Shown piece after piece: positions 90 to 61,900 of a stretch of DNA of 64,000 nt. The stretch spans positions 34,337,631-34,401,630 of the forward strand of contig JAGTTD010000013.1 in the NCBI GenBank assembly GCA_018398585.1. Reading direction: 5' to 3'. The notes under the pieces are model-generated. The model was given only the letters and a program-made list of their open reading frames with translations, did no database searches and was not told where the DNA came from. The DNA comes from Simmondsia chinensis (taxonomy: Eukaryota > Streptophyta > Magnoliopsida > Caryophyllales > Simmondsiaceae). Each line of letters opens with the position of its first letter. The stretch's first letter is position 1. A program made the translations under genes and the position numbers.

Positions 90-3000
90 CTAGTCTCTTC
101 CTTCTTCGAGAGTACGACTAACTGGTGAAGCAGTTGGAACTATGATGGCCGACTCCTGCAATCCTCCGAATTGAATGCCCGATTTAACGTCTTCTTGGAT
201 CCCAACTTCCGTCTGGGTCGGGTTCTCGGTCTCGGGTTTCTTGCCCCATAAGAACAAGTACAGCCCCAGTATTACGAGAGTCATGCCTAGCAAGCTGCAA
301 TAATTTAAGACATCCAAACTATAGTCATGTACTTTGTCTTTTTTCTTTTGATAATTAATGGCATAGCCGACGTACAAGCAGGTAACTCGACAGAGCGATC
401 CCTGAGCCACCCCGTAAACAGAGTGGGTACAAAAAGACAAAAAACGAAAACAAACAAGGAGAAACAAAACACAACTGGAAACGGCACACAAACACCAAAA
501 GACCGGGAAAACATCAACAAACAAGCAGAGACCCAACACAAGCAAGGCAGCAGATGAAGCCGGAGCAGATACACACTTTGAAACACCTCACAGAAGACGG
601 AAAACGAAGACCTGGAAAAGGGTGGAGGACAGGATGGGGAAACCCTCCCTCCCCCACGAAGCTGGCAAGGTACCCGGCAGGATGGGACCAGACAGGAGGG
701 GTACTGAGCCAACATCACAAGGAAGGGGAGAGAAAGCCCGGGTTGGCGGATGAAAGACAACAGGTCGTACTTTGTCTATTATATCAATTTAGTCGTTATA
801 TATTTAATTATATCGACTTAGTCTATATATAATTTCAATCATGTTAGTTTAGTTCTAGAGTACAATTGATATTGAGTTGATAAACCTTGTCAACTGATTG
901 GCTTATATCGGGTTACTTTCTTTTGACATGATCATGCTGTTAAAATTATATTATTAACTTTCCTTCATTGTCGTCATAAGACTGAATTAACACTATATAA
1001 AGTATATATATAGATTAAATTAATATAATTAAAAGTAAAAAAGTATAAATTGACACAGTACATATATGTACCTTCCAAGAGCGAGGTCTTGAGAAAGAAA
1101 AAAGAACTCGAGAAGGGCTACAAAGATAAGGCAAAGAGGGCTGAACATAGCGGGATACGTTGGACCCTTTTTCGCCACTGCCAATGATATCAGATAAAAT
1201 GACATTCCCGAGACCAGTGCTCCCTGCATGCGAGATTCACGTATAAGTTTAAAATAATTGTTAATTTGAAATTAACTGATAATAAATTTATTAGATAATT
1301 AAGTTTATATGTTCACAAACTATGTATATGAAATTCATGTGTAAGTTTAAAACAACTTTTAATTTGAAATTAATTGATAATAAATTTAGTAGATAATTGA
1401 GTTAATATGTTCACAAAATATATAACTAAGTAGACATTCGTACCATCGGCTCTTCGATTGACCACATTTCTTTTAATCATGTTTATAAAAAAGTAAATCG
1501 GTTAGTTGATTGGCTAGCAAATGCCGATAACAAGAGCTTGGGCGTCACCATTTGAGACCAGACTCCCTTTCGCGCTCTCCTCCCCATCCCTCGGGCTGAA
1601 ACCTTGGGATTTCCTCTCCAAGAGGACGTCCGTAAGGTGCTACAACCCTGTCCTTACCTTTATTTAAAAAAATGTTGACAAAATACCGAGTAAAAAATGG
1701 TGAGCAGTTGCAAGTTCCATCCTAACTTCCACGATGACTTGCGTCTGTCAATACATAATCCAACGACTGCTGATTGAATGGCAGCCGCCACACACATTAA
1801 CATCGTTGCCCAGTACTTTGATTGAAATTCCTTTAGCAACTTCACCTACAAACAATGACAAAGCCACGTACAAGTGTAGTGGAAAATTACTCACACTGAA
1901 ATACTAAAATATATTTAATTGTGTTATATAGTTACAAATAATACAATAGATAAATGCTAGTCGTACACTGGAGTACTAAAATAATAGTTCCTATTATAAT
2001 TAACCCACCGGCTTTAGGTCCTAGCTCGAACACCGCCTGCAAATTGGTCCATCTCTTTGTAAGATTTTGTGTACTTATGTTGTGTATATAGAACGTTTTT
2101 CTTTATTTATATGTAGGATCGGTCTTTCCATCACATAAATTCAGTACTAGTAAAATAAATTGGTTGTATAACGTGTTTGATCAAATAAGTGGATATGTCA
2201 ATCAGTTTTAGAAAGAAACTCCTTTGATATGTATTGGCAAAGAAATCAAACAAGTGGGTCTTAGTTATGTTACTGATCGATAAGCTCAACCCAATATAAC
2301 TAGGCCCGACAACCATATACATTATCTATTAGCTTACAGAAAAGTAATTACTTAATATCATTTTGTTGATCCGATAACATTTTCACACATTATTAAGTCC
2401 CTAAATTGAAAATACAGTAATTTGCAGTAAGTATATGTTCCTCCTGGGAAGTCCGAAATTAAGCGTGCTTGGACGAGAGTAGTATTAGGATGGGTGACCT
2501 CCTGGGAAGTTCTCACCCTCAGGTTGGGGCACTGGAAAACAGCCTCTCTTCAGGTTAACACCCTGAAGAGAGAAGGCTGCGTACATCCGCCCCCTCAGGA
2601 CCCTGCGCAGACGGGAGCCCTTGAGGCACTGGGTATGTTCCTTGCAGTAAGTATATGATGCTTACCTGCACAATGAACCACGTGGCATAGGAAAAACAGC
2701 TCGCAACGAGAAAGCAAGTGCCACGTGTCCAATCGGGATCGGTCTCTTTGGCATGTACATCTTTGTGCTGAAATTTGTGGGGGCCAATGTGAAACGATAT
2801 GCCTTTGTAGAGCGAGATCACGAGTGCACCTCCCACGCATATTACTGCACCTGCGACCTTCACCTTGCCCCTTAGCGTGCTCAACCGTAGTTTCTCCATT
2901 CTGCATTCGTTCTATGTCATTTTCTCAAATTAGGACGATTTTTCGTATCGGTACAATATGTCGATTACCAAGAAGACATACGACATTAGTAAAACGATCA

Positions 3001-6000
3001 GGGTCACGCATACATTCGTTAACACGGAATGCAAATAACATACGTAGGGCTGCAAATGAGCCGAGCCGAGTCGAGTCGAGCCACAGCTTGGTCGGCTTGG
3101 CTGGTTAACTAAATGAGACCGGCTCGGTATCAGTATCATTTATCTAGCCGAGCCGTACATCTGTGTTCGGCTTGGCTCGTTTACTAAATGAGACTGGCCT
3201 GTTAACTAAATGATACCGGCTCGGTATTAGTGTCATTTATGCTTGATTATTTGGCAAGCTGTCTCGTTGAGCTTTGTTAGCTCATTAGGCTCATTTATTA
3301 AGTTTGTTAGACTCATTTATGATTATTGTTACTTGGATTGCTAGAAAGAAGTAATAAAATAAATCACGTATGGAATTTAAAAATTAAAATTATATACGTT
3401 ATTCAATTTCGCAATCCAAACATGTGAGCCAATAATCGAGCCGGCTCGTGAGCCTTTCCAGCAGAGTCAGCCTCAGTTTGATTTGGCTCGTTTATTTAAA
3501 CGAGCCGCCTTAAACCAGCCAAGCTGGCTTAAACGAACACGAGCTGAGCCCTTAACGAACCGAGTCAAACCAGCTCGGGAGTCGACTTGGCTCATTTGCA
3601 GCCCTAAACATACGTACCCGAGAATGGTAGAGAAGAAAAAGGTAACAATAGGAATCAAATTAAGGAAGTTGGTAGCATAGGTTGCATTCGTGTCCCGCAT
3701 GCCATAATAGAACATCCCCATTCCCATCGTTATCCTGTAGACGAAGATGTGATTTAAAGTCATCAAATCGAAAGTACTTTTTTCAGTTGTCAACCGAATG
3801 TTAATTTGATCCAAAATATACAATACGACAGCAACAACAAGAATGATCACAGTGCCTCAAGGGCTCCCGAGTACTTAGGGTCTGGGAGGTGTGGGATGTA
3901 CGCAGCCTTATCCCCTCAGGGTGAGACCCTAACGAGAGGCTGTTTCCAAGGACCCCTAACCTGATAGTTGATCCAAAATATACAATACAATTAAAGATAT
4001 TTTCAATAAAATAAAGAGTTATTTACATTTTACTATCCTGACCTTTTTGGTAATTATAAAAAGAACACTGACGTTTTAAAATTATTAAAAAGGTCCTCGA
4101 GGTTATATCGTATTAATAAAAAAGGACTCTCTTCGGCCATCTGATGTCATTTTGAAAGGTTTTTTGGACCATCTGGTTTATTTCAATTCGATCTGAATTT
4201 GCATGATAATTATTGTGAAGGTTTTTGGGCCACTCAGAATCATGATTTTCCTTATTTTGAAAGGGAAGTCATTTTCCCTTGTTTGCCGGAGAGGGTCCTT
4301 TTTATTAATACGATAAAATTTCGGGGTCCTTTTTAATAATTCCAAAACTTCAGGGTCCTTTTTATAATTATTAAAAAGATCAGGGTAGTAAAATATAAAT
4401 AATTCTAAAATAAAAAATGAATAATTTTATTTTGTCAGTTACTTAATTTTGCCTAATGTGCCAATTTAGTATTTTTTTAAAAAATTCCTATATTGACACA
4501 ATATTTCCTTAAAAGTCTAGTCACTTATTTAATGTCAATTTCACTATAATCATGTACTATTTTTTTTTTTTTGAACAGAAGAAAGCCCAAAGACGAGACT
4601 AACTTTAAGCTAAATCCTTCAAAATAAGCGACATAAGGCCAAGAGGAGGGCTTGACCACGATCATGGTTACAGAAATTTCCAAGATGGTGTCGAGTATAT
4701 TACTACCGTTCAAATTGTCCAACTATATAACACAAATAAAAGTTTCATGTACCAAAAATTGGGATAATAAGTAAATGGGTTATCTACACCATATATCTAT
4801 GTACTTTTCTTATTGTATAAATTGAATACTTGTACTTTTAATTTTATCAATTTAATTTCTCTATTTTTTTTATCACCGTCCTCTATTATTTACATTGTGT
4901 CATTTTTAACTTTTCGTCAAATTCAAGTTAAGTTATTGACGTCACTACGAATCCTCTTAATTACTCAATTTAATCCAATCCACAGATGAACCATTAAAAA
5001 TTTAATTAACTTATTATATAAATTTTATTCTAAGGACTAAATTGACCCAATTAAAAGTAAAGGATCATACCCAGTGCCTCAAGGGCTCCCACCTACGCAG
5101 AGTCCGGGGGGCGGATGTACGCAGCCTTCTCCCTTCAGGGTGTTAACGTGAAGAGAGGCTATTTTTCAGTGCCCCCAATTAAAAGTATAAAACTAAATTA
5201 ATATAATGAATAAAGTAGCATTAATTTTAGGAATAAAGTACCAAAAAAAAAAAAGGTAAATAACACAAACTAATTGATCTTTAGTAACATGAGAGTTAAT
5301 AGACATGGACAAAAGATACCGTCCTCAAGTCCCAAAAAAAAAAAAATTCAAAATTCAAAATTTATGCATTTTTGTTTTTGGTTATTTACTCTAAAAGTCT
5401 CTATATTTTGCTCATTATGTCAATTCAGTTCTTGTATTTTCAATTATATCAATAGTCCTTGTATAATTCAAAATGTTTTAATTTAACTCTTTGGTCAAAT
5501 TTGAGTTAAGTTAATAATGTATTTTTGAACAAAAAATTATTTTAGATGCCAGTAACTCATTATAAATTCATTTATTTACTCAATTTAATCTAATTCATGA
5601 CCGAACCATTAAAAATTTTATTAAAAACTTAACATACAATTTTCTCTAAAAACAAAATTGACACATTTTAAATTATACAGGGACTAAAAATACACAATTG
5701 AAAATACAAGAACTAAATTGATAAAGTATACGACCTTTGGCGTAAATAAACCTTTTTTTTAATATATGAAAAACTAAACACATGGGATAATTCCTAATAA
5801 TTTATATGAATTTCACTATATATCACAAAGGTGCCCAACAAAATAGAGGAAATAAAAAAAAATATAGAAATCCTTCATTCAAACGTCTATTCAGCTTAAA
5901 GTATGGATATTATACAGACTCATCGTATATTTTGTACTTAAATTATTTTAATATTAATATTAAAAGTGGGTTTGTTAGGATTTCAACTCATGACATCTTG

Positions 6001-10826: not shown

Positions 10827-11055
10827 GGGTGTATTATACACTGCTAGTTTAACGCGATGTCCTAAACTGATGCTTTGTGGCTTCCTTGGTCTCCAGGTTA
10901 CAATGTTCTCATGATGGCTCGATCTTCAGGATGGGGGTCATTGGAAACAGCCTCTCTTCCACTCGGAAGGGGGAAGGCTGGGTACATCCACTCCCCCAGA
11001 CCCTGCTTCGTGCGGGAGCCCCTGTGGCACTAGGACTGTCGTTGTTGTTGTTGTT
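10827..11055 (+). mobile_element. Au-type SINE with a non-5S head, full length
   Basis: The copy is delimited by the exact 16-bp duplication ataaggatcgtaattg (10811-10826, 11056-11071). The 3' half is the shared Au-like body (ggaaacagcctctctt, aaggctgggtacatccac, gcgggagcccctgtggcact) and a (GTT)n tail. The first 100 bp do not match 5S rRNA; ggctcgatcttc near 10916 resembles a tRNA B box, but the head is unassigned. Confidence 0.82.
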
Positions 11056-11282: not shown

Positions 11283-11523
11283 CAACAACAACAACAATAA
11301 CAACAGTCACAATGTCTTAAGGGCTCCCGCCTAAGCGGGGTTTGGGGGGTGGATGTATGCAGCCTTACCCCTTGAGGGTGTAACCCTGCCGAGAGGCTGT
11401 TTTCGAGGACTCCCAACCTTATAAAGTTGGCAACAGAGGACTTCCCAGGATGTAACCCATCATAGTACTATTCTTGCTTAAGCACGCTTAACTTCAAAGT
11501 TCTAATGGGATCTGGTACATTAA
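11283..11523 (-). mobile_element. 5S-headed Au-type SINE
   Basis: A minus-strand copy of about 241 bp has a 5S-like head starting near the internal GCACCGGATCCC region and including aagttaagcgtgctt, then the junction ttgccaactttataaggttg, the Au-like body and a (TTG)n tail. It is flanked by tgtttgtgtcatga / tgtttgtgtcacga (11269-11282, 11524-11537), with one mismatch. Confidence 0.85.
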
Positions 11524-14424: not shown

Positions 14425-14660
14425 CAACAACAACAGACCCAATGCCTCAATGGCTCTTGCTTAAGCGGGGCCCGTGGGATGGATGTATGCAGCCTTACCC
14501 ATTCAGGATGTAACCCTGCCGAGAGGCTGTTTTCGAGGACTCCCAACCTTATAGGGTTGGCAATACGAGAACTTCCCAGGAGGTTACCCATTCTAGTACT
14601 ACTCTCGCCCAATCACACTTAACTTCGGAGTTCTAATGGGATCCGGTGCCTTATTACCTT
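14425..14660 (-). mobile_element. 5S-headed Au-type SINE
   Basis: The reverse complement reads gcaccggatcccattagaac, ccgaagttaagtgtg, gagagtagtactag, cctcctgggaag, then caaccctataaggttggga, the Au-like body and a (TTG)n tail. Flanks are aaaagggttaaacat / aaaaaggttaaacat (14410-14424, 14661-14675). The head lacks about the first 20 bases of 5S. Confidence 0.88.
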
Positions 14661-19936: not shown

Positions 19937-19954
19937 CACCGGTGAGCAGCGAAG

Positions 19955-22900
19955 ATGAAGACCATACTATCATCAGAAACAATGGACATCCCCGACGGCG
20001 TATCAATCAAAATTAACGCCAAAATCATCGAAGTGGAAGGTCCTAGGGGCAAATTGACTCGCAATTTCAAGCATTTGAACCTCGATTTTCAGTTGATTGA
20101 CGGTGAAGATGGCAACAGGAAGCTAAAGGTTGAATCTTGGTTCGGATCAAGGAAAACCACGGCTGCGATTCGAACCGCGCTGAGCCATGTGAATAATTTG
20201 ATCACTGGTGTTACGAAAGGGTATCGGTATAAGATGCGTATGGTGTATGCACATTTTCCGATTAATGCTAGTATCACTAATGCGAATAAGGGCATTGAGA
20301 TTAGGAACTTCCTTGGTGAAAAGAGGGTATATTTCTATTTCCCCCTTTTTATTTTTTTGTTGGTTTGATTTCGATCTCTGTTAGTAAAACACGGTATAGA
20401 AATTGAATGCGATTTAATTTGTACGCGTATGATTTGGTTTATATACATTGAAACTTTGGTCAATAGTTTGTTGACTTAGAAAAGTAAGAATAATCTAAAT
20501 CTCACATAGCGGTAGTGGAAGGATAAGACATAGTAAATGATATAGTACACTCAACAAGATGAGAATTAAAGTGATAATATGTGTATTATATGGATAATGT
20601 AAAGAGAATGGGTATTGGTATAAGATGCGTATGGTGTATGTGCATTTCCCGATTAATGCTAGTATAAGGGGTTTGAGATTAGGAACTTCTTTGGTGAAAA
20701 GAGGGTATGTTTTTTATTTTACTTTTTGATTTTGTTGTTGGGTTATTTATACTGTTGATCGCTCGTTCGTTTAAATTTGTATTTCATCTTTTCCTTATTG
20801 AAAATGGATCCTAATGTTTTGAGTATTGCCTTTTAATAAATATTGTTCTTTTTTGAGTATAGGGTAGACCCATTTAGGAGTAAAGATGCGTACATCTTAA
20901 TACGTACTTGTATTCTTCGGTCATATACACGAAAACCTTTGTCAAAAGTTCGTTGGCTTATAAAAATAAAGATTAGATATATAATTTAGCTATACATCTT
21001 GATTATTTTCAATTTAAATGGGAAAATGACAGATACATGCTATAATACGTGTATTATACGAATAACATCAATGCGTATGATTTATGCGTATTTCCCGATT
21101 AATGCTAGTATTACCAACGAGAATAACGGGATTGAGATTAGGAACTTTCTTGGTGAAAAGAAGGTATATTTTCGATCTTCCCTTTTTTTATTTTGATGGT
21201 GGTTTAATTGGGAGTTGAATTTTGCATGTTTTGACGTGAATTGAAGCTATCTAGTTTAGGGTTAGGGGCCCTTGGGAAACAGCCTTTGGGGTAAGCTGGG
21301 TACTCCTCAGACTCTACTTGGTGATAGCCTTTTGAGGCACTGGGTTTGTTGTTGTTCTTGTTGATGATGATGTCTATTTAGATAATATTTTCCTCTCGGA
21401 ATATTTCTTATCTGGGTATCTTCATTGATAAATGTTGTTTTCTCATAAGTTTTAGTTTGTTCATTTACGAAAAATAATTTCATTACTTATATGTTTATGT
21501 GAGATTTGTGCTTGATCAAATTTAGGTTGAAGTAAGATATAAGACACGACATCGGGATGGAAAACATTTTACGTTCCATGAAGGAAAATGCCATTTTTTC
21601 TTCTTGAGGGGAAGTTTACTTCCTCTTTATGGAGGAAAACATTTTCTGTCAAACAAGAATTGCTACTTATTTGTACTATGAAACTATAAAAATGTGACGG
21701 AAAAGCTTTTCCGTCAAAACAAACTGAGCCGTAGTGACTATTTTCCCTTGAACGATACTTTGCTGACTTGATTTTATTGTATCGAAATTATTATTATTAT
21801 TATTATTTTTTCTTTTTTTTGCTTTTGTTGATGTTTCAAGCGAAGGTGATGTTCCTCCCTAGGTTATTGCAGTGTCTTGCTCGTTGAAGAAAAACAATGT
21901 TGCTTTTTGTTTTGTTGTATCCTCGTTCTCTTTCGAATTTGCTTTCAAAATCTTTGTCCACTAAGTGTGCTAGCTTTTTCCTTTTTTAGATGTAGTAGTT
22001 GATTGCATATTGATCTATTTTTACGATATGCAGTTTTAAGTTACAAATCGTTTGATGCTCATAATTATTTTGCTTTTTTTTGGGGGGGTAGAATACTGGA
22101 ATTTACGTGGTTTAGTTGAAACCTATGTCTTAGAGGTGAGCATGCCAACTTCACTATTTTAGTATAGTACAAGAGATATTTTCAGATGTTTCACACAACC
22201 TAATATGTATTTATATACACGGGTCTAACCAAATTGGCCTAATCCTCTATATAATATACAAGGCCCGTTAAAATCAAGCTTCAACCGTAGGCGTAACATG
22301 AAGATAGTCAAATTCTCGATTTTTTTTGTGATAGCTTGAAACTGATTGCAGTTTTACTTGATGTGCACCCATGGTCATTTTCTGATTGTATTCTCTATCT
22401 TCTTACCTCGAGTTTTTCCTGGATATATATCCTTGTTGTATACCTCTCCATTGTTGGATGAATTGGTTGTATAAATTTATGCCCCGACTTTGATGATACT
22501 ACTATGTCTTTTGGAAACTTTAATCACGTTTCAATGTGTGGCTCTTTTTAGAGGATCTGTTGAATTCGTCTCTTGAGTTAAATGATTAGCGATGTGTCAT
22601 CCATGGTTCTAGTGTTCATGAATAATAACACCCTACAGTGTAATATGGGGTTCTGTGGTCCCTTTCGGCAGATAAAAGATAAAAATGTTCTAGCACTTGT
22701 TGGCTCAGAGCTCGTAGTGTTATTTATCCATGGTTATGCTATGTTTGAGTTCGTATTTTCATCTCTCTGGAGAAATTCGTTTTATTGGCTTTAAATATGG
22801 GGTTTTTGTATAAGATTTTAATTAATATATCGTATTCCATTATGCACCACTCTATTATGTAACCGATTCTAATGTATATGTTTGCAATGACAAGAATAGC

Positions 22901-27370: not shown

Positions 27371-27627
27371 CTCCTAAAATTAGGGTTTAAAATCTGGATG
27401 AGAAATTCAAATTAGGGATTGAATTGCAGTTTAGATTTCGTAATGTAGAGATCGAAATTGGAAAGCAAAAGCGGAGGAGAAAGAAAGAGGTGGGTGGGGT
27501 TTTGTTGTAACGGCTCTACCTGGAATCGCCTGGAATTTTCCTCTTTTTTTCCTTTTTATTCTTTTCTTCGTTTACTAATATAAGAGTTCATTTATCAGGT
27601 ATTAATACACCGAATTTTATTAAAATT

Positions 27628-27841
27628 GTAAAGTTAAACATGCTTAGGCAAAAGTAGTACCAGGATGGGTGACCTCCTGAGACGTCCTCATGTTGCCAAC
27701 TCTATAAAGTTGGGGATCCTCGTAAACAACCTCTCAGTAGGGTTACAACCTGAAGGGGGTAAGCTGCGTACATCCACCCTCCTCAGACCCTGCTTAAACG
27801 GGAGCCCTTGAGACACTGGTTCTGTTATTGCTGTTGTTGTT
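27628..27841 (+). mobile_element. 5S-headed Au-type SINE
   Basis: The head includes aagttaaacatgcttaggc, agtagtaccaggatgggtga and cctcctgagacgtcctcatg. It continues into ttgccaactctataaagttg, the Au-like body and a (TTG)n tail ending near 27841. The first third of the 5S sequence is missing and no clean duplication was found. Confidence 0.78.
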
Positions 27842-33135: not shown

Positions 33136-33910
33136 GGTGAGTAAAGAGGAAGCATAAGACAAAGTTTTGTACATTCATCTACGCCACCAGAAAAAACAAA
33201 AAACAACTACAATACATAAGCTTCGAACCAAAGATTTTATGCTTGACCCTTTTTTCCGTTAATTAACGACAAAGTTGCAGTACAAGAAATGCAACTCATA
33301 CAAGCAAGTCCTTAGTGAACCATATAAAAGAGGGAACTAGAAACAAAAAGCAACAGACACCAAAAAAACAAGAATACGGGACCAAAAGGATCAAACAGGC
33401 ACTCTACAGCTATATCACCACTTGATGGATAACAAAACCATTACAGCAAACCCAACACTTTGACTAACATTCTCTACCGACCCTTTTTTTGAAATCGATA
33501 AAAGAAAAGATAGAAATGCCCACAAATGTCAAATTTGACATACAAAAAAGTACATATGGTGCATTTTTCATAGGGAATGTTCCCATTTACTTTTATTATT
33601 CCATTCATATACAACTTTACAACTACTATAAGCTATGAAAATCTAAAAATATTAACCAAAAAAGAGTATATATTCTATATTGTGTTATTTTTTTTATTCT
33701 ATGCTTTGCTTATCCCAACAAAATAAAATATTTACGTGCAATGTGCCAACCTAAAGATACAACATATCACTGATCTGGCACTAGCATCTGCCAGCACTCT
33801 CTATACATGCGAATATAACAGAATTTGAACTCGAGAATTTCATTATTCAAATAGACTTGCACACTTGTCACTTAAAACAGATTTCGAGTACTGGGTCTGG
33901 ATAGTTTGAA
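33136..33910. other. Intergenic sequence with a LINE 3' fragment
   Basis: A minus-strand LINE 3' end lies at 33248-33460 (cttttttccgttaattaacg, gacaaagttgcagtac). The remaining 33460-33910 is AT-rich with no recognisable content. Confidence 0.5.
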
Positions 33911-34159
33911 GGGTTCATTTACCAGGAACTAAGGCACCGGATCCCATTAGAACTACAAAGTTAAGCGTGCTTGGGCGAGAGTAGTACCAGGCGGTAAGTC
34001 CTCGTGTTGCCAACCATATAAGGTTGGGAGTCCTCGGAAACAGCCTCTCGGCAGGGTTATACCCTGAAGGGGTAAGGCTGCGTATATCCACCCCTCCCAG
34101 ACCTCGCTTATGCGGGAGCCCTTGAGGCACTGGGTCTATTATTGTCGTTGTAGTTGTTG
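33911..34159 (+). mobile_element. 5S-headed Au-type SINE, full length (type copy)
   Basis: The copy is delimited by gtctggatagtttgaa / gtctagatagtttgaa (33895-33910, 34160-34175). Head 33911 to about 34012 aligns with plant 5S rRNA from its first base: gggttcatttaccaggaact, aaggcaccggatcccattag, aagttaagcgtgcttgggcg (box A), agagtagtaccagg, then a deletion removes most of box C before aagtcctcgtgttgcc. The body then reads aaccatataaggttgggagt, cctcggaaacagcctctc, aaggctgcgtatatcc, gcgggagcccttgaggcact, and a TTG-type tail. The body and tail are those of Au-type SINEs. Confidence 0.9.
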
Positions 34160-34484
34160 GTCTAGATAGTTTGAAAATTTTTCAAATTTTGAGTATTCGA
34201 TCGCATAGTCTATACTTGTTAACTTGCATATCGTGGGTCTACCTTAGATGTAAAATTGGCTTAAAATTATATTATCTAGATTCGGGTAAGTTTCAAACTG
34301 GGCTTTTCATGTCCCCGAATTAGACCAATAAATATATTGATGCATGTACCCAAGTATAACACACGAAAAGGGTTATTCATGTTTTAGTATCCTGATATTT
34401 TTGGAAATAACAAAAAAGATTCTAACTTTTTTAAACTAATAAAAAGACCCCTTGTATTCGAGCTTGTCTCGGTAATTATCGAAA

Positions 34485-35424: not shown

Positions 35425-38400
35425 CTATCTACCTAGTTCTTCGTCACCAATACTGCACGCACAATTACCACCATCACCGATAGCTTGAAACTCGGCAGTG
35501 AAGTCGAGAAAATAGAACAAAAGAACAAGACCAACGCAGCTACAGAACATCGGAATGGGGCCGAAGATCCACAAGAACAACGGGAACGAGAAGTAGAAGG
35601 CTCTTAACCCGAGTGACCAAAAGTAGCCTCCGCGATTCACGATACAGCTTATGTACTCGGATGTCAAGAAAGGGGATGCCATTTTCTTGAAGGGCACATT
35701 GACAAGGATGCTAGCATGACTGTAATACCTGTCGCGTAAAACCCTTAGTTAGCAAAAAAAACATGTATAATACGCATATTTGTGAACCATTTCGAGGTGT
35801 TTATTCTTTTGCAGCGTTTCAGGTTTTCGTACCATTCTGGTGGGGTTTTTTTCCCCTTATTTCATGCTTTTGTGGTGGGTGTCTTTTATTCGAATAAATT
35901 ACCAAAGTGGCATATTTTGCAAAAAAAATTACCAAAATGGCACACTTTACTGCAGCGTCAATAAGAAACGCCGTTTGAAACGGCGTTCGTTGAGCGGTCG
36001 GAGACGTTACCTGTCGGACGCATATTTGTGAACCATTTCAAGGTGTTTATTCTTTTGCAGTGTTTTAGGTTTTCGTACCATTCTGGTGGGGTTTTTTTCC
36101 CCTTATTTCATGCTTTTGTGGTGGGTGTCTTTTATTCTCATTTGGTTCCAGTGTTTTATGGATAGTTGTGCTTTTGCGCTTTGGGTTCTTTTAACCCTTC
36201 TTTGTCTTGAAAAGTCTGTGCAATTAGGATTGCTCCTGTCATTTTTTATCGTTTGCACTCTTGTGCATTTTGTCCCACTTAATACAAATTATCCAAAAAA
36301 GGGTATTCGACACGTATTTGTATTGTCTTGTTTAAAAGGGGCATCTACGTGTAATTATAAATAAAAGCAACATTCCCAGTACCCTAAGGGCTCCCGCTTA
36401 AGCATGGTATTTTGGGGGAGGAGGGCGGATGTACGCAACTTTCCTCTTTCAGAGGTTGTTTCCAAGAACCCCCAACCTGAAAGGTGCAACACGAGGACTT
36501 CCCAGGAGGTCACCCATATTAGTACTACTCTTGCCCAAGCATACTTAATTTCTGAGTTCTAATGGAATCATGTGTAATTGTAAATACTACGCTAATTTTT
36601 GTGAGAAAAGTCAATCATTTGCGATCGGAATTGCAGTGACAAATATATCAATTATATGCCAATAAATTTATTATGCGAAAATGTGGTCTTTTCAGGAACC
36701 TCTCCACCAGAGCTTTGGAGATTTCACTGATATAGCGTGAGCAGATACGTAGACGGATTAGAAGGCTTTATATTACTGATTCTTGGTTTTTAAATGACAT
36801 CTTATCCTTAACTTTTTGTACATTTATTTTCAAACTAATATTATTTCTTTTTCGATTCAAAAAGTTTCCAATAGGTGAAAGAAGAAATCGAGCCAAGTAC
36901 CTAATGGACTGAACAATTAAGAGGAACGCCAAGAGAAAGCAGACAAGTATGCTGAAGAACTTTATGGAAAAGCCTATGGCACTCCGATCCCCAAGGACAA
37001 ACCCTAGCTCACCGAACCCAACTCGGCTCGTCATTATGATTGCGATGACCGAGCTTAGCATGATGGCTGTAGATGCTAGTAGGGTTGATGCCATTATGTT
37101 GTTCCTCAAGGTCTGAACAGCTAGCACGCCGGTTTTCGGTGAGTCCTGTACGTTATTCACATTTTTAGTTCATACGAGAGTTAAAAAGGGTGAAAGAAAT
37201 GCGCATGATACGAATCTACAATTGGAAATAGATAGAAAATAAATCAAAAGCGGTAAAATACTGGAATTAAAGATAAAAGAGAGAAAATATATAAAATTGA
37301 TATCATTTCATTTGTAACTTAGTTAATACAATCTAACTCCATTTCTAGATCGGCCTATTTTACTTCCTCTTAGGCCGACCTATTTCTCCCAAACTGTATA
37401 TTTATTTTGGGCATGCGTTAGTGTATGGGGAAACGAGAGAGGGATCCAACTCAATTATTGATTCGGTTTCTATTAGGCAAAATACCCAAAAATTGTATTG
37501 GATATAGATGTCAAATAGCATATAGAAAACTTACGGGATATTCAATTTGAATGGGCTTAACTCACAGAAGAATTCATTTCAATATATATAATGGGATACC
37601 CTATGGTTTGAATATTTTATCACTTAGATACACTATCAAGGAATTTCATGAATTTTTGAGAGAATTTGATAAATTTTATACCAAAAATGTTGATATAATA
37701 CAAAATACGGTAATATATATAAGCTACTGCTATTGTTTTCATAAAAAATTCAACTAATTGTAAAAATATTCATCGAATGTTGATGTAAACCACCTAAAAA
37801 TTACCATAATTATGACATTTTCACATTATTCGGCAAAAAGTTATCAAATTCTAATGAAAAATATTGTTGAATTCATGTTCAATTCTAGTATTTTCGAACA
37901 AAAATTTATCGAATATTTGACAAAAGGGTACCGGATTGATAAAATTTTAAAACTTCAAGGTATTTAAGTGATAAAAACGTCTAAAACTCAAAATATCTTA
38001 TTGTATATATTGAAATGTTATGGTACCTAAGTAATAAATGCTGAAACTTTAGGGTAACTAAGTGATAAATTTCCTTCATTTTTTTGTCTTAAAAGAAATT
38101 GAAATGCATGCATGCATTTTTTTTTTTTTTAATAATTACCGACAAAGCTACAATACAAAACAAACAACTCGTACAAACGAGCCTTAAGTCAATTCATATA
38201 TAAATGGGGATAAAAAACGACAAGTACAGTACAATATCCCAAACCGAGAAAATAGGATTACAAACAAAAATAGGATTGCATACATTCATATAAATCAATA
38301 AAATAGAATAAATCCTCCTACTTCGCCTTCAATTACTAATTGCATGTTTTGTCACGTTTGGGTTTTTGAAAAATTAAAAATTAAATTTTAAAAATACTTT

Positions 38401-42659: not shown

Positions 42660-42804
42660 GCGGACCTACTTCTCAGGTTGGGGGTCCTCGGAAACAGCCT
42701 CTCTTCAGGGGAGCCCCCTAAAGGGGGAAGGTTGCGTTCATCTACCCCCCCAGACCCTGCTTAAGCGGAAGCCTTTGGAGGCACTGGGTTTGTTGTTGTT
42801 GTAG
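42660..42804 (+). mobile_element. Au-type SINE
   Basis: Body ggttgggggtcctcggaaac, agcctctcttcagg, aaggttgcgttcatctaccc, ttggaggcactgggtttg and (TTG)n tail. The head upstream (from about 42540) does not resemble 5S and is unassigned. A possible duplication (tttttttctaat near 42476 and 42809) would make the element about 320 bp. Confidence 0.7.
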
Positions 42805-43188
42805 TTCCTTTTTTTCTAATTTGTGGAAAAATCCTAGTTTTAGTTTTTCGAAAACCAGCTACAACTCGAAACGACAGCAAATACGCCCTAGAACAGAAAG
42901 AGTTGTGTAAGCAGCACGTATAGCCAAGCTAAAAGAGATGCAATATAACAAGAATCAAATCAACTTGGATTGAATTTCTTATAGATCGATAAAGATTACA
43001 ACGAGAATCAGAAAGATGAGCTACATAAAACTTCTACTTTGGAATTTGGATAGCTTTACAGCTATACTAGCACTCCAACAGCTCTGCAGTGAATCCGAAT
43101 TACTGCATATAGTGATATACATAAAATTGTCCCTATCTTCCTACACTCTCCTATTATTGATCGTCCAAAGCTCATAAAACAAAATCAT

Positions 43189-52038: not shown

Positions 52039-52301
52039 CTACGACGACGACGACAACAACAACAGACTTAGTGCCTCAATGGCTCCCGCCTAAGCGGGGT
52101 CGGGGGATAGATATACGCAGTCTTACCCCTTCAGGGTGTAACCCTGACGAGAGGCTATTTCCGAGGATTCCGAATCTTATAGGGTTGGCAACACAAAAAC
52201 TTCCCAGGAGGTTACCTATCCTTGTACTACTCTCGCCCAAGCACACTTAACTTTAGAGTTCTAATTGGATCTAATACATTAGTACCTAGTAAATTAACCA
52301 T
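52039..52301 (-). mobile_element. 5S-headed Au-type SINE, near full length
   Basis: 263-bp minus-strand copy. The reverse complement begins near ggttaatttactaggtacta (the 5' end of 5S), then ttagatccaattagaactct, aagttaagtgtgcttgggcg, agagtagtacaaggataggt, cctcctgggaag, the junction ttgccaaccctataag, the Au-like body and a (TTG/TCG)n tail. Flanks ttatgtccgacc / ttatgtccggcc (52027-52038, 52302-52313). Box C is retained, unlike in 33911-34159. Confidence 0.88.
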
Positions 52302-54013
52302 TTATGTCCGGCCGTGCAATAAAAAGAAAAGGCCAAAAAGAAAAGCTATAATGCAAATTTTTTTTTTGGACGTTAACTTTAATGGGTTGGTAGAATCTTT
52401 TTTTTTTTAATTATTATTATTATTATTAAATATATTGATTTACATGGCCTGCCAATATTGACATCATGAATATTTTTCTTGTTGATTCCAAAGTAAAATT
52501 GTAAGAGTTTATTCTTAGAATCAAACTTTTACGAGTCACGAATAAATCACGTGCCATATTGTATTGTATTTATAGTGTCTATTTTTACCTCTTTGACAAC
52601 GTGTTAAGAGTTTAAATTTGTTGTAAAAATATAAATATTAATTTAGGTTATTTACTTTTTATTACTTCGAATATATGAAAATAACAAAAAAAAGTCACTG
52701 ACTTTTTTAATTTATTTTTTTAGTACCTTAGTTTTATATATATTTATAGTGTTAGATGCTTTCATGGGAAATATCGCAAACTTGAAACAAAATTGTCTGT
52801 GATAAAAGTGGCGTTGTATTGAGATATGATGACTCGAAGAAGATAACGAGTTAATTTACTTGGGATTTGAAAAAGGTAAAGAAAAGAGACTTTTTTAAAA
52901 TTTATCCAAAGGGCTGACATTTTGTTGGAAAGTGCTTTAAACGGTGTGTTTTGTTCTCTTTAAGAACACAATAATATCTTGCATGGCACCAAACTTTAGT
53001 CTGGGGCTTCAAAACAATGTCGTTTTTGTCGTGGGCAATTTTATCTTTTCAGGTTTCTTATATTGGGTTTCGCCAAAAAATTGATTACAAATGGGACCCC
53101 AACTATTGTAAATTTTACAAAATGCATACCACAAAACATTAGAAAATTATCACAAAACATTAAAAAATAATATAATTCGACTATCCCATCAGAGCGAATG
53201 TGTAGCCAAATGACGACATCAAAAAAGAGAATTCAAATCGGGTAATGTGGGAACTTTTGAATACCCATTAAAGATGATTTAAAAGCATCTCCAACGAAAA
53301 GCTTTCATCTCACCCATTTTTAATATCACGGCTGTCCATCCATTCCAGTACGGTAACCAAATTTTACTACTTAATAATGTCTTGTGATACATTTTTAGTG
53401 TTTTATAATCTTAAATATTTAATTTTTTTATGCTCATCTAATTCAATAATAATTAAAAACATCAATAAATATTGTACATGAAAAGTAATCATTTATGTTA
53501 TTATTATTTAATTGCAATAAAAAAGTAACAAAACAATAATAAAATCAAAGAAAGAGATAATCATTAGGAAAAAAAAATGAATTATTATAAAACCTAATAT
53601 TTAAATTCATCTTACTTGACATTTAAATATCGAATAAATTTATTTACAAAATATTCAAATATTTAATTTATCATTCAGTGAAATTTTTTGCATACTCCAT
53701 TAAAAATACATTAAAATAATTTAAATTTTCAGATCTTAAATATTTAAATAATAATAAAAATAAAGTTCCTAAGATAAATAAATTCAGGGTGGGGTGACAA
53801 TTAATGGCACCATGTAAAAGTCACTTTCAAAAATTGTAATTAATACTTTGCATTAAAAGGGTCCGAATTCCTATGACTTTTTATGGTAAATATAAATCTT
53901 AATTAATTTTTATCATAAATTATAATTAAAGACATATATTAAAGTATATTAATTGTATGTTTGATTGAATTAAATACAAATATAATATTAATTAGTTTTT
54001 TAATCATTAGATA

Positions 54014-54113
54014 CAACAATAACGGTCCCAGTGCCACAAGGGCTCCCACTTGCGCAGGATCCGAAGGTAGGATGTACGCAGGCTTATCCCGTCACGGTGA
54101 GACCCTGACAAGA
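54014..54113 (-). mobile_element. Au-type SINE, 5'-truncated
   Basis: Minus-strand copy (cagtgccacaagggctccca, gtacgcaggcttatcccgtc) flanked by the duplication tttttaatcattagata (ending 54013; 54115-54131). Confidence 0.85.
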
Positions 54114-54194
54114 TTTTTTAATCATTAGATAATTAAGTAAAAAAGTAAAAAAATATAAGTATAGTTAATACACTTTAATATAAGTTAAAAAAAT

Positions 54195-58984: not shown

Positions 58985-61900
58985 CTAATGCTCCAGCACT
59001 TTGATCTTCTCAATGCAGTTCTGCATTTGCTGATTCAACACATCTGAGACATTATCTCCTGCTACCAGCTTATATTGCTCGAATTTCGCTTGCTCACACT
59101 TCAACGCCGCGTTCTTGCATGCTCTGATACTTCCTACATGAGAAAGAGATAAGAATAGTATCTATGTAGTTCAATCACAAGAGAAAATAAGCAACAAATT
59201 TGCAAGTGTAAAAGCCGGTTTAGTATCGGTTTTTGTTTGTAGTTTCGGTTCTCCAAAAACTAAAAACTATGTTCTGAAAATGATTTTTCTTGTTTTCGGT
59301 TTTCAATTTCTTTCTAGTTTGAGTGAAATCTGAAAACAAAAAGAACCAAAAACAAGAAAACATCATTTTCAAAACTAGGGTTTTAGTTTCTTAAAACCCA
59401 CAAATTGTAGACAGAAAATGTTACTAAATAGGCACTAAATGACTAACCGATTGTGAAATATCTAGCTTATAAGAACAATACATTGAGTTTTCTCCTTTAA
59501 CTAGTACTACAGTAATGCGGGTGTCCGGGCCAACTTACACACACCTCGACTAGACCTTGAGTTGCATGCATTGTTCACTCGGATGTTTTCCTAAGTGCAA
59601 CAAAGTAAGTTGGGACTCAACGAATTATTTACACTCATTGGGAGGACTTGGAACCAGACCTTATGCTCCATATGGTGCTAAGTCAAGTGCTTTACCACTT
59701 GAACCAACCTCTCGGGTTCACTAGTACCGAACCATTATTTAATAATGATGCAAGTTATGCATTGCAGATAGAAGCCATAGACTCAAACCAGCCAACAAAA
59801 GGCAATTGGACAAACACATCTAACTTGCTAAGCATAATGGCACTGTTACAATAGATTAGGAAGATTCAATACACGTTTTCATCATGCCATGTGGGTATAT
59901 TAGAGTCAACGAACCAACAATCACAAAAGCTCAAGTTGATGATTGAAGGCCCAAGAATGGTTTCATACTATAATATTGCCTCTCACGCAAATGCCTATTG
60001 GGCTGAAAGCGTGAATAGTGCACAAACTCATCTCATACCTTGTGCTTTACTTATGTTACTATTGAAAGTGGGGGTTGTTGGATTCAAACTCGTGAAACCT
60101 TGATTAACAGCTCTAATACTTTGTGGAGGAACCAACAATCCCAAAGGCTTAAGCTGATAAGTAAAGGTCCAGGTATGCATTTATACTTTGACAATTAGTA
60201 ATAACTGAGGAACTTCTCATAAATATCGTTGCAAAAGAACATATTACTTCGCCAGTTAAAGGCCCAGTTTTTCTGGTTTTTTTTGTTTTTCAAAGAATTC
60301 CACTTAGGAAAGCTTTCATTGATTTAGGAAAGCTTTCATTGATCACAACAGATTAGCATGCAGAACAAACAAAATATGCATATATCTACTAACGACATAG
60401 ATGCTATGCCCTTGGCAGATTAAGGACATATGATTGGGGGTCCTTAGAAAAAGCCTCCCGTCAGGGTTACACCCTAAAGGGGTACGGCTACGTACATCCC
60501 ACCCCTCCCAGACCCTGCTTATGCGAGAGCCCTTAAGGCACCGGGTCTGTTGTTGTATTAAAGACATATGAGAGATGCTCACTAAGCTCGACACGCTTAG
60601 TGATGCTGTTCGGGTTCCCCATATTTTTAGAGAAGGCAATCATGTTACAGATCTAGTGGCTACTATAGGTCATCTCTGCCAGGGCCAAGGAAGAGTAGAG
60701 GGAGAATCTCTACAGAATCTTAAAACAGTTGAATCCGTCGATGCACAAGACCAAAGCTATATCAAATAGCATGTCTGGTGTTCTCCTTAACAAATTCAGT
60801 AGACAAGGTCAGACTCACCACTTAAATCGAGTAAGTTAAATGAAACAGGGCACGTTACGATGCTCTTAACCATGGTGATTGCACACCAGACTTTTTGGTA
60901 CTCCTCCCTCGAAGCTCTGATGATGCACACCTTTGTTATTGGATTCACATATTTAACTGTAAATACAGAAATCTTTTTAATTCAATGAAATATAAAGATA
61001 GTATAAATGATAATTCAAACTATCTCAATTGGACAACAACAACATAGACAGATACAAAAGCCAGAATACTCAGTCATGAGGAACATACACTCTTTCCTTT
61101 CTATAGTAATTAGAGTGTTCGGACCAACTTACATGCATCTCAACTAATCCCAAGGTTACACACATCGTCTGCTTGAAAGTTTCTATATATGCAATAACGG
61201 TAATTTGGGGCCCACAAACCCAATGGGTGGTCTCAAGAAATTGTCTGTACTTAATGGCAATATTCGAACGCCAAACATGATGCTTCAAGACGTCTAGGGG
61301 TGTAAACAAACCAAACCTTGAACGAACTGCTCGTATTCGAAATCGATTAAGTCTCGTCCATAATCATTTTGAGCCCTTGATAGCTTATGGACCTAAGTTT
61401 AAGTAGGCTCGATTAGCTTAAAAAGCCCAGCTTGAACATAAGATGTTCGACTTGTTAACGTTTACAAAGAATTTGATAATGGCTTGTAATGTGCTTGTTA
61501 AAAACTCGCTAAAGGCTCATTTACGACTCGATAGTAACTTGAGCTGCTAGGCTTAGTTGCGAGCCCAACTCTATAGCAAGCTCAATACAGTTATAAACTC
61601 GAATCAGCTCAATAACGAGCTCAGTCTGGATCAATAAGACTAACAAGCCGATTCGGGTCAAGTATCGAACACACTAATATTTTATGGAACCAAATCTGAA
61701 CAAAGGTTTAATAGCTCTAGTGAACTCGAGCCCTATAAGACTTATTAAGCTCAAGTTTAAACAAAGGGTATTCTGCTCGACTTACACCGCTATTACGACA
61801 TCATGCCCAAGTTAGGAACTTATACACTCACCTTGGAATGACCCAAGTGAAGAAGCCAGACCACATTCCCCAAAGTTAACAAGGATGCTGTCTTTTATCG

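Follow-up and report, generated by a model that had tools for sequence, protein, structure and literature searches.

Animal SINE3 elements (zebrafish SINE3, AmnSINE1, the fruit bat element, HaSE3 and PxSE4/5) are described as combining a 5S rRNA head and its A/IE/C promoter with a LINE-related 3′ end and target site duplications (TSDs) of variable length. The heads of the tobacco TS SINE and of the Au SINE are tRNA-derived, and BovB belongs to the RTE clade. Springhare Ped-1 joins a 5S head to a BovB tail, and the 3′-terminal 100 nt or so of the TS SINE, together with its (TTG)n tail, are shared with its partner LINE, RTE-1_STu (PMC3747384). According to the same source, TTG-type repeats form the ends of RTE LINEs in flowering plants, including the one that partners the TS SINE, and the Au SINE ends in a short T run (T2-5) and has no known partner LINE (PMC3747384). 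The TRIM Cassandra is also a plant retroelement with a 5S promoter, but it is an LTR element and carries the 5S sequence inside the LTR; in a 2024 paper on plant retroelements that contain 5S, animals are cited as known hosts of SINEs with such a promoter (PMC10853983). Outside animals, a 5S-related SINE is described from Aspergillus, namely AfuSINE3, with five copies of 50-65% similarity to 5S. Among the matches listed from an open library of 5.39 million papers, 5S-headed SINEs came from vertebrates, insects and Aspergillus, and none was from a plant. Here, we describe a dispersed family in Simmondsia chinensis that belongs by its architecture to the SINE3 kind.

Results

Copies in the window

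The window, the whole stretch of 64,000 nt analyzed here (C30:34337631-34401630, from a genome of 831 Mb in 35 contigs), contains a focal element on the + strand whose first base, 33911, is directly abutted by a 17-nt left TSD (33894..33910, +) with one mismatch to the right TSD (34159..34175, +). The element starts at the first base of a 5S-like sequence, as the preliminary description had stated. Its 5S rRNA-derived head (33911..34017, +) corresponds to nt 1-120 of the consensus but has lost 13 nt in the box C region. A 3-nt ATA linker (34018..34020, +) separates this head from the LINE part and is followed by a body that corresponds to an RTE-like LINE 3′ end (34021..34137, +; LINE homology from consensus nt 124) and a degenerate (TTG)n tail (34138..34159, +). 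The focal head had been called complete, which was incorrect in view of the missing 13 nt and of a score below the Rfam 5S_rRNA cut-off. Because it lacks this part of the box C region, the focal copy is probably a dead copy.

Six further 5S-headed copies had been named beforehand, and all seven proved to be real: each matched the family profile, from whose building set six of the seven were absent, and each carried a TSD, 11-17 bp long and with at most one mismatch. The same profile gave no match in 21 reversed sequences. The six copies lie at 52039..52301 (-, 12-bp TSD), 14425..14660 (-, slightly 5′ truncated, 15-bp TSD), 11283..11523 (-, slightly 5′ truncated, 14-bp TSD), 36364..36571 (-, 5′ truncated, 15-bp TSD), 27584..27841 (+, 11-bp TSD) and 2438..2641 (+, rearranged 5′ end, perfect 16-bp TSD). 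Their boundaries had been placed well, except for the start of the copy given as 27628-27841, which is really at about 27584, some 44 nt earlier; the TSD of this copy (window 27586) can be read as 20 nt with four mismatches or, alternatively, as 11 nt with one.

In the copy at 2438-2641 (+), a piece of the 5S 3′ half precedes the box A stretch and the perfect 16-bp TSD abuts this odd start, which looks like the outcome of a template jump within 5S during insertion. At 10827-11055 (+), a copy of the tail is enclosed, together with a 5′ part of approximately 75-100 nt, by a perfect 18-bp TSD; neither 5S nor a tRNA-like B box was seen in this 5′ part, which may be a diverged LINE 3′ UTR or a chimeric head of another kind. 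Two open reading frames, at about 2555-3856 (-) and at 19946-20368 (+), resemble what we take to be a WAT1-type transporter and, presumably, ribosomal protein L9/uL6, respectively.

Family consensus and 5S rRNA head

Consensus building from copies, which the preliminary description had suggested, was carried out with 28 aligned copies (27 fetched loci and the focal copy) and yielded 259 nt with a per-site agreement mostly above 80%; these copies were picked by likeness to the focal copy, and the consensus consequently leans toward the focal subfamily. It consists of a 120-nt 5S rRNA, the linker ATA, a body of approximately 115 nt and (TTG)n. The LINE-derived part begins at nt 124 (AGGTTGGGGG) after the 3-nt linker, and the junction of 5S end, ATA and LINE part is common to all 28 aligned copies. 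One locus (L028:301-610) holds a tandem pair, in which a 5S-headed copy was apparently inserted into the TTG tail of an older copy.

The Rfam 5S_rRNA model was found by cmscan in all 13 near-consensus loci searched, which were drawn from the 27 fetched loci, with 48-78.6 bits against a cut-off of 38, and it passed the gathering score in four of the seven window copies. Over nt 12-112, the consensus head was identical to an angiosperm 5S rRNA in 98 of 102 columns (approximately 96%), the reference being a general angiosperm sequence rather than the native 5S genes of the host; the first eleven and the last few bases of the head differed from this reference. The 5S likeness of the head, on which the preliminary description depended, was thus upheld by both comparisons, and judged by its sequence the consensus head is a complete 5S rRNA.

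When the consensus head was folded in silico, GGGUU (nt 1-5) and AACCC (nt 115-119) paired as helix I, and the two other 5S arms also formed. The preliminary description had put the junction at ttgcc|aacc, which has to be moved, since AACCC is the 3′ strand of helix I in this fold and the LINE part starts only at nt 124. The head folded modestly better than its shuffles (z -1.7; 10 of 200 shuffles folded as well) and the body no better than its own (z -0.45). Covariation in the 3′ hairpin was not clear in a test whose pair register was off. Compared with the angiosperm 5S reference, helix I appears "rewritten"; some of the differing bases may, however, be present in the native genes of the host as well.

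The consensus keeps boxes A, IE and C of a type 1 Pol III promoter. Among 41 copies, the box regions showed change rates of 4.9-7.2% and the other parts of the head after nt 11 rates of 5.4-8.3%, so that the promoter boxes were not markedly slower-changing than the remaining head. The SINE consensus contains no run of four T, and the Pol III stop therefore presumably sits in flanking DNA.

LINE-derived body

The body had been assigned to the Au type, but it matches the 3′ end of an RTE-like LINE of the same genome, with its (TTG)n end. The most informative locus, L049 (C34), shows the end of an RTE-like ORF, a stop, a 3′ UTR of approximately 230 nt, the SINE-matching stretch and TTG repeats. 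Its ORF end was 63% identical over 102 aa to the C-terminus of a plant RTE protein (E 4.6e-43). Its tail agreed with the SINE consensus at 103 of 116 columns, and this match begins precisely at SINE nt 124. The ORF piece of L049 had 25 protein relatives, of which the five named ones came from Nicotiana and Cuscuta, and the 102-aa LINE piece gave no Pfam match. The LINE of L049 (C34:11857900-11859200) is 5′ truncated and, by eye, has a near-matching end duplication, GATGAAGA.CC.

Two other loci gave corresponding results. In L039, the end of an RTE-like ORF is followed by the 3′ UTR and then by the body, the order being as in L049; the ORF end, which contains an internal stop, was 51% identical to an RTE C-terminus over 67 aa (E 4e-17), and the tail matched the SINE in 85 of 109 columns from nt 130. 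The tail of L032, which also retains a short remnant of an ORF end, matched in 100 of 116 columns from nt 124. L032 additionally encodes a BAH/agenet protein; its best match was 63% identical, and the named matches, among them Liquidambar formosana (59%) and Bertholletia excelsa (57%), point to a eudicot host. L032 and the first copy in L039 share upstream 3′ UTR sequence (z 9.4), and when the upstream regions of 10 body-only copies were compared, L032/L039 was the only one of 45 pairs above z 4.

No LINE copy with a reverse transcriptase was seen; in the sequences probed for this domain, partial matches were limited to two, from L030 and L029, and these look L1-like to us. By the tail alignments, the body of the SINE derives from an RTE-like LINE, whose 3′ end it represents. 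The partner is labeled RTE-like from the C-terminal part of its ORF, the only part observed, and the label stems from the similarity to the plant RTE protein and from tail logic, that is, the TTG-type ends of flowering-plant RTE LINEs and of the TS SINE partner.

Retroposition, dispersal and copy number

With flanks anchored at the element start and a score of at least 8, TSDs of 9-23 bp were detected in 21 of 33 full-length copies and in 0 of 33 mismatched-flank controls, in which the left flank was paired with the right flank of another copy and which covered full-length copies only. In each of these 21 cases, among which is window copy 27586 with its 20-nt reading, one TSD pair encloses both head and tail; the other 12 full-length copies had no clear TSD. 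Together with the Rfam result (5S in 13/13 loci), these TSDs confirm what had been proposed, namely a SINE family that is dispersed, carries a 5S head and ends in (TTG)n.

Several body-only copies had a TSD at their 5′ end, for example a perfect one of 18 bp at 54013-54116, and others had none; such TSDs are expected from 5′ truncated LINE-type insertion. Among the 15 body-only matches in the window are those at 60428..60556 (+, TSD at the 5′ end), at 3828..3967 (-, perfect 21-bp TSD at the 5′ end) and at 42670..42806 (+), whose upstream sequence did not significantly match that of any other body-only copy compared.

Profile matches were counted in the 64-kb window and in a 200-kb sample (264 kb in all). 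The sample comprised twenty 10-kb stretches whose positions were fixed before looking (5 Mb on 16 contigs and 15 Mb on four); the 16 contigs already had family matches, which introduces a mild bias. Of the 38 profile matches, 15 start at nt 1-49, none at nt 50-98 and 23 later, one of these at nt 99 and 11 of the remaining 22 at nt 114-124; the body therefore also occurs headless, and the border between the two parts is sharp. All but one of the 15 head-bearing matches extend to profile nt 235 or beyond. The 15 head-bearing copies, a set that omits the window match at 10903 (it begins only at profile nt 99 and lacks a proper head), were 82.5-94.7% identical to the consensus, and by this divergence the 5S-headed family is, on average, not very recent.

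The sample contained 8 head-bearing and 8 body-only matches and the window 7 and 15, respectively. Eight head-bearing copies in 200 kb correspond to 40 per Mb (Poisson 95% 17-79), the window being denser, and extrapolate to roughly 14,000-66,000 head-bearing copies per genome; they cover 1798 of the 200,000 sampled bases. For comparison, between approximately 500 and 20,000 SINE copies are given for Arabidopsis, rice and pepper, and a plant genome usually consists of SINEs to approximately 1% (PMC8825457). A genome search with the focal element gave at least 41 matches, 40 of 6055 first-look candidates being scored; besides the focal copy itself and one 50-bp fragment, the matches had 85-89% identity and covered most or all of the query. 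A 62-aa antisense reading across the junction had 32 matches among predicted proteins, and in the two that were aligned, including the best one, from Phaseolus vulgaris, only the 5S part matched well, which makes this a weak test of spread.

Discussion

Overall, we conclude, with a probability of roughly 92%, that the family is a plant 5S rRNA-derived SINE of the SINE3 class, in which a whole 5S rRNA was joined to the 3′ end of an RTE-like LINE and which is presumably mobilized by LINE machinery. As a putative mechanism, Pol III would transcribe the element from its internal 5S promoter and read through the tail. The LINE reverse transcriptase would recognize the 3′ end that the SINE RNA shares with it, and insertion by target-primed reverse transcription would generate TSDs of 9-23 bp and, occasionally, 5′ truncated copies. 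The family may have been born in a single fusion between a mature full-length 5S RNA and a LINE RNA, with either template switching or RNA joining as the process; we favor the direct joining of the two RNAs because the 5S part runs to both of its natural ends. For mammalian LINE-1, small RNAs are on record as being joined to the LINE through template switching or RNA ligation; 5S pieces in such joins are as a rule truncated and in antisense orientation, in contrast to the whole 5S found here, and the same source credits to Kojima 2018 the joining of RTE LINEs to tRNA or 5S rRNA as a source of SINEs (PMC13174262).

A different birth can be imagined, in which a tRNA-headed SINE of the TS or Au type had its head swapped for 5S by recombination between SINEs. 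This has been proposed for the moth element HaSE3, whose body and tail recur in a tRNA-headed SINE and which was interpreted as such a chimera (PMC3272025), and the TS SINE has a similar RTE tail (PMC3747384). However, no B-box candidate with under three mismatches in nine positions turned up among the 23 body-only copies in the window and the 200-kb sample, in a scan in which 209 of 500 random stretches reached three mismatches or fewer, and ARAGORN, which may miss decayed tRNAs, found none in the window or in 21 loci. Tail-sharing relatives with a tRNA head may be ancient or lost, and a head swap gives a present-day element identical to that of a direct fusion. On balance, we regard a head swap as unlikely.

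An element of the Cassandra type, or a solo LTR with a 5S insert, would also bring a 5S sequence into a plant retroelement, Cassandra being the known carrier of this kind (PMC10853983). In our full-length copies, however, the 5S part begins at the first base of the element, whereas the 5S region of Cassandra is reported never to be at the LTR ends (PMC10853983). The TSDs of 9-23 bp and the LINE-derived tail also argue against such an origin, and the surroundings of the focal copy yielded no LTR pair: within approximately 1 kb of it, the only direct repeat of at least 25 nt was a 31-nt pair of 74% identity. We therefore consider an LTR element, which the preliminary description had named as a reading that would overturn its own, very improbable. 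Independent adjacent insertions of 5S pseudogenes and LINE tails, for which the commonness of headless tails (8 in 200 kb and 15 in the window) might speak, are hardly credible given a junction common to 28 aligned copies, a single TSD pair around head and tail in 21 of 33 and the extension of 14 of 15 head-bearing matches to profile nt 235 or beyond.

Returning to the fusion of a 5S RNA with a LINE RNA, a more far-reaching version can be put forward. Alu uses SRP proteins, and by analogy the RNA of the present family may use TFIIIA and uL5/uL18, the partners of 5S, to reach the ribosomes that make the LINE protein. Helix I (GGGUU/AACCC) would then have been rewritten while the 5S fold was kept, and the family, as the first 5S-headed one in plants, with a birth separate from those in animals and fungi, would for this reason rank among the more numerous plant SINE families. 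We offer this combination as a speculation that is quite doubtful as a whole.

With probably tens of thousands of copies in a plant, the family would extend the class of 5S-headed SINEs to a third kingdom. It would also illustrate cleanly how a SINE is born: both parts, 5S-type head and LINE tail, are traceable, and the LINE is in the same genome. One tool for plant SINEs discards candidates that are nearly identical to Rfam RNAs, with a default E of 1e-15 (PMC8825457), so that young 5S-headed SINEs may be thrown out as rRNA. In potato, nine unclassified repeat families match non-coding RNAs, 5S rRNA among them (PMC4524691), and such a family could be an unrecognized relative. Given these potato repeats and the limited literature scope, we treat "first in plants" as a lead and not as a finding.

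Among the described systems, the Au SINE was considered for the identity of the family and set aside by description, its tRNA-derived head and T2-5 end contrasting with the 5S head and the (TTG)n tail found here; a more distant relationship of the body to Au may nonetheless exist, as far as description goes. In the literature, the body motifs led to two listed papers, both unrelated. The tobacco TS SINE and its partner RTE-1_STu, likened to our family by description, have a comparable shared 3′ end with a (TTG)n tail, but the TS head is derived from tRNA. The animal SINE3 elements have the same general plan; here the host is a plant, and only 3 nt separate the head from the LINE tail. PxSE4/5 share approximately 63% with 5S, compared with a whole 5S at approximately 96% over nt 12-112 (against the angiosperm 5S reference) in our consensus. 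The closest architectural match, again by description, is springhare Ped-1, from a mammal, and the present family would be another instance in which a 5S promoter and an RTE tail together made a successful SINE.
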